34,689 bases of DNA from Desulfurococcales archaeon (lineage in GTDB: Archaea; Thermoproteota; Thermoprotei_A; Sulfolobales; Desulfurococcaceae): assembly GCA_027002875.1 (NCBI GenBank), contig JALWZC010000024.1, positions 37,194 through 71,882 of the forward strand. The letters are read 5' to 3'. Position numbers and translations under genes: made by a program. Shown here one piece after another: positions 22,686 through 27,334 of the stretch. Below the pieces are notes generated by a model, which was not told the origin of the DNA, made no database searches, and was given only the letters and a program-made list of their open reading frames with translations. The number at the start of each line of letters is the position of its first letter. The first letter of the stretch is position 1.

Positions 22686-23207
22686 TTGAAGCCCGCCGTA
22701 CTGGTTGTGTACCTTGGAGAAGATGATCCATCTAAGAATACCTCGCTGAAAATGATAAGGTCAGGGATCGCTAGGAGGATCGAGCCCCGAAGGATCCGTG
22801 GCTCACCGATAATCCTAGACCCCTATTCAAAAGAGATCCTTGGATCATGGCTTCGTGGAACGATTGAGCATTACGGCTTAGTCGTTATTGATGGTAGCTG
22901 GAAGAAGCTCTCCCCATCTAAGACCCAGAGAATTAGGGGTTTCCATACACGCCTCCCGCCACTACTAGCCGGTAACCCCGTTAATTACGGGAAACCCTGT
23001 ATACTATCTAGTATTGAAGCAGTTGCAGCTGCACTATATATTACTGGTTTCACTGACCTATACGATAAGCTCCTCGGACTATACAAATGGATGAATACCT
23101 TCCACACGCTTAACAAGGATCTCCTCGAGGACTATGCTTCTGCAGAGGATTCAGCTATGCTTTCCCGGGTTATCATGGATTATTGGGGTGAGTCTCCTCC
23201 CTGTTAG
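22686..23207 (+). CDS. tsr3: 16S rRNA aminocarboxypropyltransferase (Tsr3/DUF367)
   Basis: 173 residues. Tsr3 transfers the aminocarboxypropyl group of SAM to a hypermodified pseudouridine near the decoding site of small-subunit rRNA. Signatures: CSW-like VVIDGSWKKL, FHTRLPPLLAGNPVNYGKP, LSSIEAVAAALYITGF, and the terminal helical part with Tyr/Trp. An N-terminal strand (AVLVVYLGEDDPSKNTSLKM) matches the usual start. TTG 22686 follows GGGGAG. It is the last gene before the 632-base gene-free origin-like region. Confidence 0.9.
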   Translation: MKPAVLVVYLGEDDPSKNTSLKMIRSGIARRIEPRRIRGSPIILDPYSKEILGSWLRGTIEHYGLVVIDGSWKKLSPSKTQRIRGFHTRLPPLLAGNPVNYGKPCILSSIEAVAAALYITGFTDLYDKLLGLYKWMNTFHTLNKDLLEDYASAEDSAMLSRVIMDYWGESPPC

Positions 23208-23219
23208 TTGATCTATGGG

Positions 23220-23342
23220 AACTCCCCGGTTTCACCCTGATGCTTCCACTAGACCCACTAGACCCGCAATTTTATACCTGCCGGCTGGTAACCCCCCGGT
23301 TTCCATGAATAGTTTCTACCGAAAACCGTAAACCCCCCAGTT
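23220..23342. repeat. Left cluster of C-run boxes (inverted relative to right cluster)
   Basis: AACTCCCCGGTTTC at 23220-23233, AACCCCCCGGTTTCCAT at 23290-23306 and AAACCCCCCAGTT at 23330-23342. Reverse complements of their 12-13-base cores occur at 23672-23684, 23809-23825 and 23731-23747 respectively. C-run followed by GTTTCCA in the second box recalls the order in reverse-complemented archaeal ORB elements. Confidence 0.75.
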
Positions 23343-23671
23343 ACTCCCAGAGTCTTCGACTGGAAGTAGAATCACATTATTCGATAATGAACGCCCCCTC
23401 CCCAATGTTTCTATTGGAGTATGTTGTTTTCTATTTTTAATATGAAATAATCATATAGTTTGCATTATTAAAGATAATTGTTTATAAAATCATAAAAATA
23501 TCCAAGACACGGTAAACTGTTCAAATACACGATAAATCTATGCAATGCAATTCTATATCCTAACATTATTCCAGTTGAAGTATAGGGGTGGGGGTTTCAT
23601 GATACACCAATTTTTAATATATGTTTTGATAATAGATGCATAGTGTTATTATTAGTGATATTTTTCATCGT

Positions 23672-23825
23672 AAACCGGGGAGTTATACCCTGATGCTTCG
23701 CCTGTAGGCGCTTTTCCTCTCTATTATGAGAACTGGGGGGTTTCCATAATTATATCCGGTCAAACTTGGATCTACTACCGGTGGGTGGAGTTGAAGGATC
23801 GGAGGATAACCGGGGGGTTTCCATT
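23672..23825. repeat. Right cluster of G-run boxes
   Basis: AAACCGGGGAGTT at 23672-23684, AACTGGGGGGTTTCCAT at 23731-23747 and AACCGGGGGGTTTCCAT at 23809-23825, spaced about 60 and 78 bases. The last two share 16 of 17 bases with each other. A looser member, GGGGTGGGGGTTTCAT, lies at 23585-23600 at the edge of the A/T-rich core. Confidence 0.75.
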
Positions 23826-23833
23826 ATTGCTCG

Positions 23834-23838
23834 AAAAA
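23834..23838 (-). terminator. T-run terminator of RNase P RNA
   Basis: On the minus strand the closing P1 stem ...CTCTCCCCG is followed at once by TTTTT, a typical archaeal T-run termination signal. Confidence 0.6.
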
Positions 23839-23839
23839 C

Positions 23840-24190
23840 GGGGAGAGGAGGCTCGTAACCCGCATTCTGTTCAAGGCCACATTCGACTAAGCGGCCCCGG
23901 CTAGGGGTTGCGCGGCCCTCCTCATCCCCCTGTTAATCGCCGGGGCCTTGCTCCCCACGGGGCGGCCGTTTCAACGCATCCACCACCGTCCTCTGCGGGT
24001 TGCTGGCCCCCCGTTGCCGGCTGGGCCCTCGCCGCTTCATCGCCATCCGAGTGGTGGCCGTGTCGTTTCTGTGCCGGAGCCACGGCTTCTCGCCGTACCC
24101 CTTTTCGGGGTCGTGGTGGCCGCGGGGAGTGCGGAGTTTCCTCACCCCCTCATTGTTTCGGGGGCGTGGGTGGCCTGGCCTCCTCTCCCC
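23840..24190 (-). ncRNA. rnpB: RNase P RNA
   Basis: About 351 nt on the minus strand. The ends pair as helix P1: GGGGAGAGGAGGC (from 24190) with GCCTCCTCTCCCC (to 23840). Conserved blocks are recognisable: CR-I GAGGAAACTCCGCAC (24129-24143), an ACAGAAACGAC block (24062-24072, CR-II/III region) and CR-V ACAGAATGCGGGTTACGAG (23852-23870). G+C is far above the surroundings, as expected for a structural RNA of a hyperthermophile. It processes the 5' ends of pre-tRNAs with protein subunits. Open frames in this stretch are incidental. Promoter and T-run terminator are both visible. Confidence 0.95.
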
Positions 24191-24228: not shown

Positions 24229-24297
24229 CCTTGTTTTGTGATAACTCTTATTTTTACTCGTATCCATCCTATATACGTGTATATACATGTAATTACA

Positions 24298-24918
24298 ATG
24301 GGTGTTGTAGTGTTGCTGGTTGAGATTATATGGCTTGGCCGGGGTGGTCAGGGTGGGGTTACTGCTGCTAATATACTAGTGTATGCTGCGCTGCGGGAGG
24401 GTTTGTATGGGCAGGGCTTCCCCTTCTTTGGAGCGGAGCGTCGTGGTGCGCCCGTTATGGCTTTCTCGAGGATTAGTGACCGCCCGATCCTGAGGCACGG
24501 CATGTTTAGTGAGGCTGATGTACTCGTTGTTCTAGATCCTAAGCTTCCATTGATCGAGGCTACTCGAAGGGTTCTAGTTAGGGATCGCGGCGTGGTTGTT
24601 GTTAATGCTCGAGATGATGAAGCCCTTGATCCAAGGCATTACAGGCTGGAGGGCTCCGCTAAGTTCTACGCCGTAGATGCTACCAGGATCGCGTTGGAGA
24701 ATAAACTAGTTGTAGCCGGCTGGCCTGTTGCTAATACTTCAATGCTGGGGGCTTTCTCCCGCGCGACGGGACTAGTTAGGATTGAGAGCGTTGTGGAGGC
24801 TATAAAGGAGTATTTTAAGGGTAGGATTGGAGAGGTTAATGCAAAAGCAGCCCTCCAAGCTTACAATGAAACAAAACTCGTAGGAGAGGTGGCTAGAAGT
24901 GTCCAAGTCCATGGTTAG
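24298..24918 (+). CDS. porG: Pyruvate/2-oxoacid:ferredoxin oxidoreductase, gamma subunit
   Basis: 207 residues from ATG 24298 (GTG 24310 is also possible). Gamma-subunit marks: EIIWLGRGGQGGVTAANILVYAA at the N-terminus, GQGFPFFGAERRGAPVMAFSRIS, then DVLVVLDP, VVVNARDD and NTSMLGAFSRATGLV. The enzyme oxidatively decarboxylates a 2-oxoacid with CoA to acyl-CoA and reduced ferredoxin, central to peptide and sugar fermentation in hyperthermophiles. First of four genes; the delta gene starts inside its last codons. The open frame back to 24238 crosses the promoter and lacks family similarity. Confidence 0.93.
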   Translation: MGVVVLLVEIIWLGRGGQGGVTAANILVYAALREGLYGQGFPFFGAERRGAPVMAFSRISDRPILRHGMFSEADVLVVLDPKLPLIEATRRVLVRDRGVVVVNARDDEALDPRHYRLEGSAKFYAVDATRIALENKLVVAGWPVANTSMLGAFSRATGLVRIESVVEAIKEYFKGRIGEVNAKAALQAYNETKLVGEVARSVQVHG

Positions 24919-25183
24919 ACTAGAACCCATAAAATACCATGTCCCCCTAGCTCGTCCAAAACAAGGCGTTGCTGGTAAGACTGGTTTTTGGAGGACTGAG
25001 AAACCAATCGTTGATAATGAGAAATGTATACGCTGCTACCTATGCGAGATCTACTGCCCAGTCAACGTTATCAGGGTAGAACCGGAGACCGGTGTAACAA
25101 TAGATTACGACTACTGTAAGGGATGCGGTGTCTGCAGCGATGTATGTCCCGTTAACGCTATAAGAATGGTTCCGGAGGAATAG
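24899..25183 (+). CDS. porD: Pyruvate/2-oxoacid:ferredoxin oxidoreductase, delta subunit
   Basis: A 94-residue ferredoxin-like subunit with two [4Fe-4S] motifs, CIRCYLCEIYCPV and CKGCGVCSDVCPV. The N-terminal arm (TGFWRTEKPIVDNEKC) is typical of PorD/VorD. GTG 24899 has GGAGAGGTGG six bases upstream and overlaps the gamma gene by 20 bases; ATG 24911 is an alternative. It passes electrons from the catalytic subunits to ferredoxin. Confidence 0.95.
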   Translation: MSKSMVRLEPIKYHVPLARPKQGVAGKTGFWRTEKPIVDNEKCIRCYLCEIYCPVNVIRVEPETGVTIDYDYCKGCGVCSDVCPVNAIRMVPEE

Positions 25184-25201
25184 CATGGCTAGGGGGTGAT
25201 C

Positions 25202-26416
25202 GTGTTGACGGCTATACTCGAGGAGAGTAGGGGTGGTAGGATACTCCCACTAACAGGTAATTATGCTGTAGCAATGGCTGCTAAGATGGCTAGGGTACAA
25301 GTAGTTGCAGCATACCCTATAACCCCACAGACTAGTGTTATCGAGAAGTTATCCGAGTATATCGAGGCCGGAGAACTAGAGGCAACTATGATACGTGTAG
25401 AATCCGAGCACTCAGCACTGGCGGCTACTTTTGGAGCAGCTATCGCGGGTGCTAGGGCTTTCACCGCGACTAGTAGTCACGGGCTCCTATATATGCATGA
25501 ATGGGTTCACTGGACTGGTAGAGCCCGAGTACCCATTGTTATGGCTATTGTTACAAGGGCTATTGCACCACCATGGAATATCTGGCCCGACCACTCAGAC
25601 TTCTATGATCAGAGGGATGCAGGCTGGGTTATGGGTTTCGCAATGGATAACCAGGAGGCTTTCGATTTAACGCTTCAAGCATTCAGGATCAGTGAGGATC
25701 CACGCGTCTACTTGCCGGTAATGATTGGCCTCGAGGGATTCATACTCGGACACACTACGATGCCCGTCCACATACCTGATCAAGAGGCTGTTGATGAATG
25801 GCTCGGGCCTAGGAGGCAGGGATTCGTAATCGACGGATCCGAGCCCCTAGCCCATGGTAACCTTGCTTGGCCGGAGGATACTGAGGAGATGTTTATGGAT
25901 ATTCACCGTGCAATGATGGAGGCTAAGAGTGTGATTCGAGAAGTGGATGAGGAGTATTATAGGATTACTGGTAGGCGTTATGGAGGGTTGACTCAGTGCA
26001 TTCGTTGTAGTGATGCAAAATACGTTGTATCCTCAATGGGTGCTTGGAGTGGCGACATAATGGAAGCAGTCGAGAAGCTTAGAGGAGAGGGTTATCCGGT
26101 GGGAGTGTTGAGGTTTAGGTTTATCCGTCCCTTCCCCGAGGAGGATGTAGCAGAACACCTTGCAGGGAAGAAGCTCGTAGTAGTATTTGACAGGGCTATA
26201 AGCTTCGGATCCATGGGTCAATTATTCATGGAAACAGTTGCGCACCTAGCTAAACATACGGGCAAGCTACCGGTGTTGAGGAATATTGTTGCTGGTGTTG
26301 GAGGCGTTAATGTTGAGTGGAGAGAGTTCTACGAGTTGATAAAGGATTCCATTGATCGATTCGAGGAGGGCGGGGAGCTTGAATATTTTACATGGTACCA
26401 TAAAGCTAGGAGGTGA
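25202..26416 (+). CDS. porA: Pyruvate/2-oxoacid:ferredoxin oxidoreductase, alpha subunit
   Basis: About 404 residues. Family blocks: GNYAVAMAAKMARVQVVAAYPITPQT, IRVESEHSALAATFGAAIAGARAFTATSSHGL, VTRAIAPPWNIWPDHSDF, YDQRDAGWV, and a transketolase C-terminal-like part (GAWSGDIMEAVEKLRGEG; VFDRAISFGSMGQLF). The alpha subunit holds the pyrimidine end of TPP and the substrate site. GTG 25202 follows AGGGGGTG; GTG 25196 and TTG 25205 are in frame. Por versus Vor (branched-chain) specificity is not decidable by eye, though the DHSDFYDQRD loop is Por-like. Confidence 0.93.
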   Translation: MLTAILEESRGGRILPLTGNYAVAMAAKMARVQVVAAYPITPQTSVIEKLSEYIEAGELEATMIRVESEHSALAATFGAAIAGARAFTATSSHGLLYMHEWVHWTGRARVPIVMAIVTRAIAPPWNIWPDHSDFYDQRDAGWVMGFAMDNQEAFDLTLQAFRISEDPRVYLPVMIGLEGFILGHTTMPVHIPDQEAVDEWLGPRRQGFVIDGSEPLAHGNLAWPEDTEEMFMDIHRAMMEAKSVIREVDEEYYRITGRRYGGLTQCIRCSDAKYVVSSMGAWSGDIMEAVEKLRGEGYPVGVLRFRFIRPFPEEDVAEHLAGKKLVVVFDRAISFGSMGQLFMETVAHLAKHTGKLPVLRNIVAGVGGVNVEWREFYELIKDSIDRFEEGGELEYFTWYHKARR

Positions 26417-26422
26417 AAGCTA

Positions 26423-27334
26423 ATGGGTGAGTCAAAGCCTAGGCCTAGGCCCCCGCTACCCTATAATATGAGGGATGTAGTACTACCCGGAGACGCTGCC
26501 TGCCCGGGATGCCCGATACCTATGGGTTGGAAGGTCCTCTCAGCAGTGTTTGGGGAGAAGATGATCCTCGTAATACCCGCTAGTTGTTCCAGCGTAGTAG
26601 TAGGAGCTTACCCCGGTAACTCCCTGAAGGCTAGCGTTGTACACGTAGCCTTCGCCTCGGCAGGAGCTGTTGCGAGCGGAATTACGGAGGCTCTCCGCAG
26701 GAGGGGGATTAACGATGTACAAGTAATAGCGTGGGCTGGTGATGGTGGTACAGCCGATATAGGAATGGCTTCACTAAGCGGAGCCGCTGAGCGTAACCAT
26801 GACTTTATATATATAATGTATGATAATGAAGCCTATATGAACACGGGCATCCAGAGATCGTCCTCTACACCCTATGGTGCATGGACAACAACTACACCGA
26901 TAATTGGTAAGACAGAGCATAAGAAGGATGTAGCAAAGATTATGATCGCGCACGGAGTACCCTACGTTGCAACCGCTAGCGTAGCCTACCCGCACGACTT
27001 CTACGCTAAGCTTCAGAGAGCTAAGAGGATACATGGATTCAAATTCATCCACCTACACGCACCATGCCCAGTCGGGTGGAGGTTTGATCCAAAGTATACT
27101 GCTAGGATCGCCAGGCTAGCTGTTGAAACAGGGCTCTGGGTACTATACGAGTACTACGATGGGAAACTTAGACTATCTGGGCCCAGTAGGCCATACCTAG
27201 ACCCATCTAAGCGCAAACCAGTCGAGGAATACTTAAAGCTTCAGGGTAGGTTTAAACGGTTAACTCCTGAGAAGATCGAGGAGATCAAGAAATACGTCGA
27301 ATGGAACTGGGAATGGGTTAAGAGACACATGTAA
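26423..27334 (+). CDS. porB: Pyruvate/2-oxoacid:ferredoxin oxidoreductase, beta subunit
   Basis: 303 residues. The N-terminal CPGCP and a later Cys supply cluster ligands (ACPGCPIPMGW; PASCSSVV; HAPCPVGW). The TPP-binding segment is WAGDGGTADIGMASLSGAAERN followed by YIMYDNEAYMNTG, the GDGx24-27N motif. PIIGKTEHKKD and GVPYVATASVAYPHDF are typical of PorB. AGGAGGTG precedes ATG 26423, 6 bases after the alpha stop. The gamma-delta-alpha-beta order equals the usual archaeal operon. Confidence 0.95.
   Translation: MGESKPRPRPPLPYNMRDVVLPGDAACPGCPIPMGWKVLSAVFGEKMILVIPASCSSVVVGAYPGNSLKASVVHVAFASAGAVASGITEALRRRGINDVQVIAWAGDGGTADIGMASLSGAAERNHDFIYIMYDNEAYMNTGIQRSSSTPYGAWTTTTPIIGKTEHKKDVAKIMIAHGVPYVATASVAYPHDFYAKLQRAKRIHGFKFIHLHAPCPVGWRFDPKYTARIARLAVETGLWVLYEYYDGKLRLSGPSRPYLDPSKRKPVEEYLKLQGRFKRLTPEKIEEIKKYVEWNWEWVKRHM

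Follow-up and report, generated by a model that had tools for sequence, protein, structure and literature searches.

Orc1-1-dependent origins and the tsr3–rnpB spacer

The closest described systems are oriC1 of Sulfolobus, which is Orc1-1-dependent and arranged as ORB3-DUE/ucm-ORB2, and oriC1 of Aeropyrum pernix, the only member of the Desulfurococcales for which experimentally mapped origins are described in the searched literature. In Sulfolobus islandicus, origin activity requires both inverted ORBs as well as the intervening ucm, which reads GTTTGTATAAT (PMC12141716). The spacer between tsr3 and rnpB in the window—the whole analyzed stretch of 34,689 nucleotides from a Desulfurococcales archaeon—resembles both systems in its inverted G-string ORBs, its A/T core, and its ucm-like site, and the genome likewise encodes a predicted Orc1-1 orthologue. 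Unlike these systems, it lies beside rnpB, not beside an initiator gene, and features outer degenerate ORBs, several of them 2 bp from a 12-bp pseudo-palindrome.

The spacer (23208-23843) has a length of 636 bp and was correctly predicted to be gene-free: it contains no ORF of at least 60 aa. Both tsr3 and rnpB are oriented into it, placing it 3' of both genes; it is, therefore, not the promoter region of either. The core at 23411-23584 has a G+C content of about 24% compared with 44% window-wide, and the 150-bp stretches with the least G+C in the window are found in it; this A/T-richest part is indeed the one flanked by the boxes. Beyond rnpB, the window carries a pyruvate/2-oxoacid:ferredoxin oxidoreductase gene set at 24238-27334 (Pfam POR, POR_N, and TPP_enzyme_C). 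With a probability of roughly 0.9, the spacer is a standard Orc1-1/ORB-type chromosomal replication origin, as judged by its anatomy, conservation, fixed spacing, and strand-composition switch. The features of the locus are as follows.

22686-23207, plus strand: tsr3 (rRNA aminocarboxypropyltransferase family, Ribo_biogen_C; Pfam PF04034, 3.8e-38), left neighbor
23208-23843, unstranded: tsr3–rnpB intergenic spacer, predicted oriC (ORB/DUE/box anatomy, rnpB-side conservation, A/T-skew switch)
23220-23231, minus strand: G-box 1, AACCGGGGAGTT
23234-23253, minus strand: ORB-like element TCTAGTGGAAGCATCAGGGT, 15/20 to the published ORB, 2 bp from G-box 1
23290-23301, minus strand: G-box 2, AACCGGGGGGTT, with a weak ORB-like neighbor only (10/20)
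23331-23342, minus strand: G-box 3, AACTGGGGGGTT
23345-23364, minus strand: ORB-like element TCCAGTCGAAGACTCTGGGA, 12/20, 2 bp from G-box 3
23399-23418, minus strand: left inner ORB, TCCAATAGAAACATTGGGGA, 16/20 to the Sulfolobaceae ORB consensus, with equivalents in relatives
23419-23569, unstranded: A/T-rich core, presumed duplex unwinding element, about 24% G+C
23458-23468, plus strand: ucm-like motif GTTTGCATTAT, 9/11 to the Sulfolobus ucm
23570-23589, plus strand: right inner ORB, TCCAGTTGAAGTATAGGGGT, 18/20 to the published ORB
23673-23684, plus strand: G-box 4, AACCGGGGAGTT
23687-23706, minus strand: ORB-like element, minus-strand reading TACAGGCGAAGCATCAGGGT, 13/20, 2 bp off G-box 4 on the other side
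23731-23742, plus strand: G-box 5, AACTGGGGGGTT, without an ORB-like neighbor
23786-23805, plus strand: ORB-like element TGGAGTTGAAGGATCGGAGG, 12/20, 2 bp from G-box 6
23808-23819, plus strand: G-box 6, AACCGGGGGGTT
23844-24186, minus strand: rnpB, RNase P RNA (Rfam RF00373, 163 bits), right neighbor

Inner ORBs, outer G-boxes, and their spacing

ORBs were scored against the published consensus TCCA[CG]T[TG]GAAA[TC][GA]AAGGGGT and against the Sulfolobaceae form (PMC4164010), both unmodified. The right inner ORB is the sole match in the window at up to three mismatches and has the top score in the 77-kb contig. The two inner ORBs are inverted, with the dyads toward the core and the G-strings outward. 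This pair had been listed as a looser fourth pair of boxes; it is best described as an inverted pair of predicted textbook ORBs around the A/T core. Its G-run GGGGTGGGGG is found exactly at 23585-23594, whereas the C-run CCCCCTCCCC occupies 23394-23403, one base to the right of its predicted place. The original prediction of a candidate origin is supported, but its outer boxes are not the divergent ORBs they were taken for; the textbook ORBs are the pair considered looser. Between the inner ORBs, the ucm-like motif is not significant alone—its score of 9/11 is reached 22 times in the window—and draws its weight from relatives, because these carry a better or exact ucm at the equivalent place: The sister MAG S143_80 has GTTTGTATTAT (10/11), and the exact motif (11/11) is present in G015, G023, G005, G017, G018, PIR-30, AUK105, and ex4484_58.

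The outer boxes form three exact mirrored pairs, as originally noted: AACTCCCCGGTTT (23220-23232) is the reverse complement of AAACCGGGGAGTT (23672-23684) over 13 nt; AAACCCCCCAGTT (23330-23342) that of AACTGGGGGGTTT (23731-23743), also over 13 nt; and AACCCCCCGGTT (23290-23301) that of AACCGGGGGGTT (23808-23819) over 12 nt, or 16 nt at 94%. Each box, referred to here as a G-box, follows the layout AACC-GGGG-(G/A)GTT with symmetric arms and forms a 12-bp pseudo-palindrome that is near-identical read both ways. The outer boxes (AACYGGGGRGTT) are a pseudo-palindromic element separate from the ORBs and not ORBs themselves. Given the ~34 exact copies elsewhere in the 1.81-Mb assembly, a 636-bp stretch would be expected to contain about 0.012 boxes, whereas six are present; the Poisson chance of such a count is about 4 in 10^15, a figure that ignores clustering. 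Scattered copies were thus found in the proposed genome-wide search, yet the motif is enriched at this locus. At up to three mismatches to AACYGGGGGGTTTCCA, the whole genome contains 62 sites compared with 4 for the reversed pattern.

The spacing between G-boxes and ORBs was analyzed for 53 boxes at 14 origin loci, with ORB-like defined as at least 13/20 and offsets from -4 to +15. An ORB-like element lies exactly 2 bp off the box in 30 of the 53 copies—18 on one side and 12 on the other—and at any other offset in this range at most 2 of the 53 boxes have one. The background is low: a score of 13/20 is reached by 0.16% of 20-mers drawn at random from the window. A clear ORB neighbor is missing at two of the six G-boxes of the window (G-box 2 and G-box 5), and none of 24 scattered G-boxes in the same genome has an ORB-like neighbor. 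Since the ORB occurs on either side of a box that itself reads nearly alike both ways, the box is most naturally taken as the site of a protein with two-fold symmetry. This suggests that the G-box may be bound by a dimeric protein, at the origin beside Orc1 as well as elsewhere.

A second G-box cluster is found at G000:C109:39-187 and C85:34-108, on contig ends that possibly abut (8-base overlap only). It was rejected as an origin: It has neither ORB nor ucm, and G015 and G023 have no cluster at its place. Of all contigs of this genome that were examined, C85 features the strongest one-sided A/T skew (-0.41), a hint that another origin may lie there or close by. A two-box pair at 927.3 kb of G015 was likewise rejected, having no ORB pair, no ucm, and little skew change.

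Conservation beside rnpB and strand composition

Relatives were gathered via tsr3, the G-box, or rnpB. The block ORB(-), ucm, ORB(+), or close variants of it, is found flanked by G-boxes beside rnpB in about ten related genera, at a distance from rnpB of about 0.1-0.6 kb in most relatives and of 3.4 kb in G014. At least one ORB (up to three mismatches, within 1.5 kb) accompanies 15 of 30 rnpB loci, compared with none in the reversed-sequence control, bearing out the conservation of this neighborhood that had been put forward as a check. The exact ucm and ORB pattern occurs in only 2 of 41 genomes, a pattern that is too strict. Species of the window's genus share both the boxes and the ORBs. 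The rnpB loci of G026 and G036, from another family of the order, carry ORBs and ucm without G-boxes, and G026 exhibits no local A/T-skew switch there. In G004, with rnpB at C1:424656-424983, the perfect palindrome GGAAACCGGCCGGTTTCCA occurs at several places, one of them at a distance of about 55 bases from rnpB; no ORBs accompany it.

Depending on the relative, the block lies on the upstream or on the downstream side of rnpB, in either orientation and with its internal order kept, and is, therefore, an independent unit. This bears on a reading in which the spacer regulates rnpB and tsr3 or terminates their transcription and the boxes are transcription-factor sites, for which the adjacency of the boxes to rnpB and the similar palindromes at gene starts in the HerA/secretion-ATPase cluster of G029 (see below) could speak. 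A position 3' of both genes and a block that changes sides with its order intact argue against it, and neither textbook ORBs nor a strand-composition switch is expected for a terminator, making this reading extremely improbable.

Returning to the origin assignment, strand composition was measured as skew at codon-fourfold sites, corrected for gene strand and read on the top strand, because raw GC skew is dominated by gene strand and shows nothing clear over 20-kb blocks of the two single-contig complete relatives. These are G015 (1,580,347 bases), presumably S. hellenicus, and G023 (1,570,485 bases), probably Staphylothermus marinus. In the window's contig, the A/T skew changes from +0.26 on the left side of the locus to -0.26 on the right side (z -16.8); the corresponding values over 20 kb are +0.19/-0.27 in G023 (z -12.7) and +0.25/-0.20 in G015 (z -11.9). 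These z-values assume independent sites and are optimistic, a permutation test being safer. In an unconstrained change-point search, the switch falls between tsr3 and the gene left of it in the window's contig, exactly across the block in G023, and at rnpB in G015; its strength is matched by none of 2000 gene permutations in any of the three. Among the sampled 20-kb blocks of G015 and G023, the strongest adjacent A/T change is at the origin locus. The check originally proposed was GC skew, which is weak in all the genomes and at this locus weak or even lacking; the compositional switch at the locus is one of A/T. T exceeds A on the strand that runs outward from the locus, a direction in keeping with a bidirectional origin.

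The A/T skew also changes sign at the loci of Thermosphaera Bin P8, ex4484_58, and AUK105. No flip was found at the equivalent site, over about 10 kb on each side, in G005, G017, PIR-30, G018, G014, and RSNS19; A/T skew is, therefore, not a universal witness of the origin. These lineages, and the fact that firing is deduced from sequence, could be accommodated by a relict or dormant origin of correct anatomy that no longer fires. Such a relict is nevertheless very improbable in view of the strong skew switches centered on the locus in its own contig and in two complete relatives, and of the conservation of boxes and ORBs between species of the genus.

The absence of a nearby cdc6, named as the weak point of the original prediction, is real. 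Of the two cdc6 genes in the genome, one is on contig C98 and the other on C103; the window's contig C24 has none. The C98 product is assigned as the Orc1-1 orthologue, matching S. solfataricus Orc1-1 (2qby_A) at 3e-124 and A. pernix 2v1u_A at 8e-124; the C103 product has its greater similarity to the Cdc6 in entry 1fnn. The rnpB spacer is located at about 936.8 kb in G023 and about 1443.2 kb in G015, and in both genomes cdc6-1 lies about 140 kb from the predicted origin. Adjacency of origin and initiator gene is usual, not defining. Origins are also called on clustered motifs alone in Ori-Finder 2 (PMC4164010).

The locus can, hence, be described as a conserved origin without a neighboring cdc6, bearing an apparently undescribed element of ORB, 2 bp, and pseudo-palindrome. 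Neither an rnpB-linked origin nor the G-box is described in the searched open-licence papers; the site may be predicted in DoriC for Staphylothermus. The motif originally suggested as lineage-specific or undescribed also occurs in single copies chromosome-wide. A conserved origin that can be located by its position beside rnpB, independently of cdc6, in about ten genera, probably including the cultured Staphylothermus, would be missed by searches tied to cdc6 or whiP neighbors.

Scattered G-boxes and comparison with known systems

About 30 single G-box copies are dispersed over the genome, and in the genus of the window the motif is, therefore, not restricted to the origin. Of 30 examined G-boxes, 20 lie inside ORFs, or 20 of 25 outside the window origin; as most are intragenic, a promoter role of the scattered boxes in this genus was rejected. 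They exhibit no polarity relative to replication or transcription (7/12 and 11/22), by which a KOPS- or Chi-like polar role was also rejected. In every comparison with the second species in the genus, scattered boxes sit at matching positions; the loci compared had been picked for having boxes, which biases this result. The arms of the G-box vary among lineages with retention of the symmetry, which also suggests a dimeric protein; this symmetry is extended in scattered copies: TGGR-AACCGGGGRGTT-YCCA in the window's genus, GTT...AAC in G039, and GC...GC in G029. In G029, the palindrome gcAACCGGGGGGTTgc also recurs about ten times within 16 kb (G029:C10:30000-48000), several copies being right at gene starts, in a cluster with genes for a HerA/TraG-like ATPase, a type II/IV secretion ATPase, and a T2SSF-like membrane protein. 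These palindromes look like putative operator sites controlling a regulon for DNA transfer or pili.

For binding and firing, the following scheme is proposed from motif content. Orc1-1, encoded elsewhere in the genome, would bind the inverted inner ORBs at 23399-23418 and 23570-23589 and recruit MCM to the A/T-rich core; a UBP-type protein at the ucm-like site (23458-23468) would help MCM leave. The outer degenerate ORBs may load additional Orc1, and the G-boxes, 2 bp off these ORBs, may be sites for another protein, a dimer, which would either touch Orc1 or organize the DNA of the origin. The fixed unit of ORB, 2 bp, and pseudo-palindrome points to such a second sequence-specific protein acting with Orc1. 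Desulfurococcales are an order without SMC proteins (PMC10769869), and the scattered G-box copies offer a direct route to a chromosome organizer in archaea of this kind. Tentatively, and with the odds leaning against it, the G-box could be the site of an undescribed dimeric Desulfurococcales protein that docks 2 bp from Orc1-bound ORBs and at dozens of chromosomal sites, coupling origin function to chromosome organization or segregation.

In distribution only, the G-box resembles the SegB sites of Sulfolobales, which number 39-46, are 83% intragenic, and cluster near segAB and oriC1 (PMC12284271): It is palindromic, has some 40 sites per genome, and is mostly intragenic and clustered at the origin. 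The SegB motif TCTAGA-S-TCTAGA, in contrast, is unrelated to the G-box and has 0 to 5 near-matches in each of these genomes, mostly like the reversed control. From the shared pattern, the spacer could be construed as a segregation or chromosome-organization center, parS/SegB-like, with the pseudo-palindromic G-boxes as its sites and replication starting elsewhere nearby. This is very unlikely, as such a center would account neither for the inverted ORBs and the DUE/ucm nor for the skew change point of the spacer, and the known SegB motif is not enriched; a segregation role jointly with the origin is possible.

As a predicted replication origin, the locus has two further counterparts. UBP binds the ucm as a monomer and also many chromosomal sites, enriched between genes (PMC12141716). 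Like the ucm, which is itself found in the core of relatives, the G-box is an origin motif that also occurs at many chromosomal sites; unlike it, the G-box has another sequence, is two-fold symmetric, and is not enriched between genes. In oriC1 of Haloarcula hispanica, G-rich inverted repeats lie directly inside each ORB and act as a replication enhancer (PMC4010727). The locus is similar in layout in placing a G-rich inverted element at a close and regular position by the ORBs; it differs in that its box adjoins degenerate outer ORBs, occurs genome-wide, and belongs to a different lineage.
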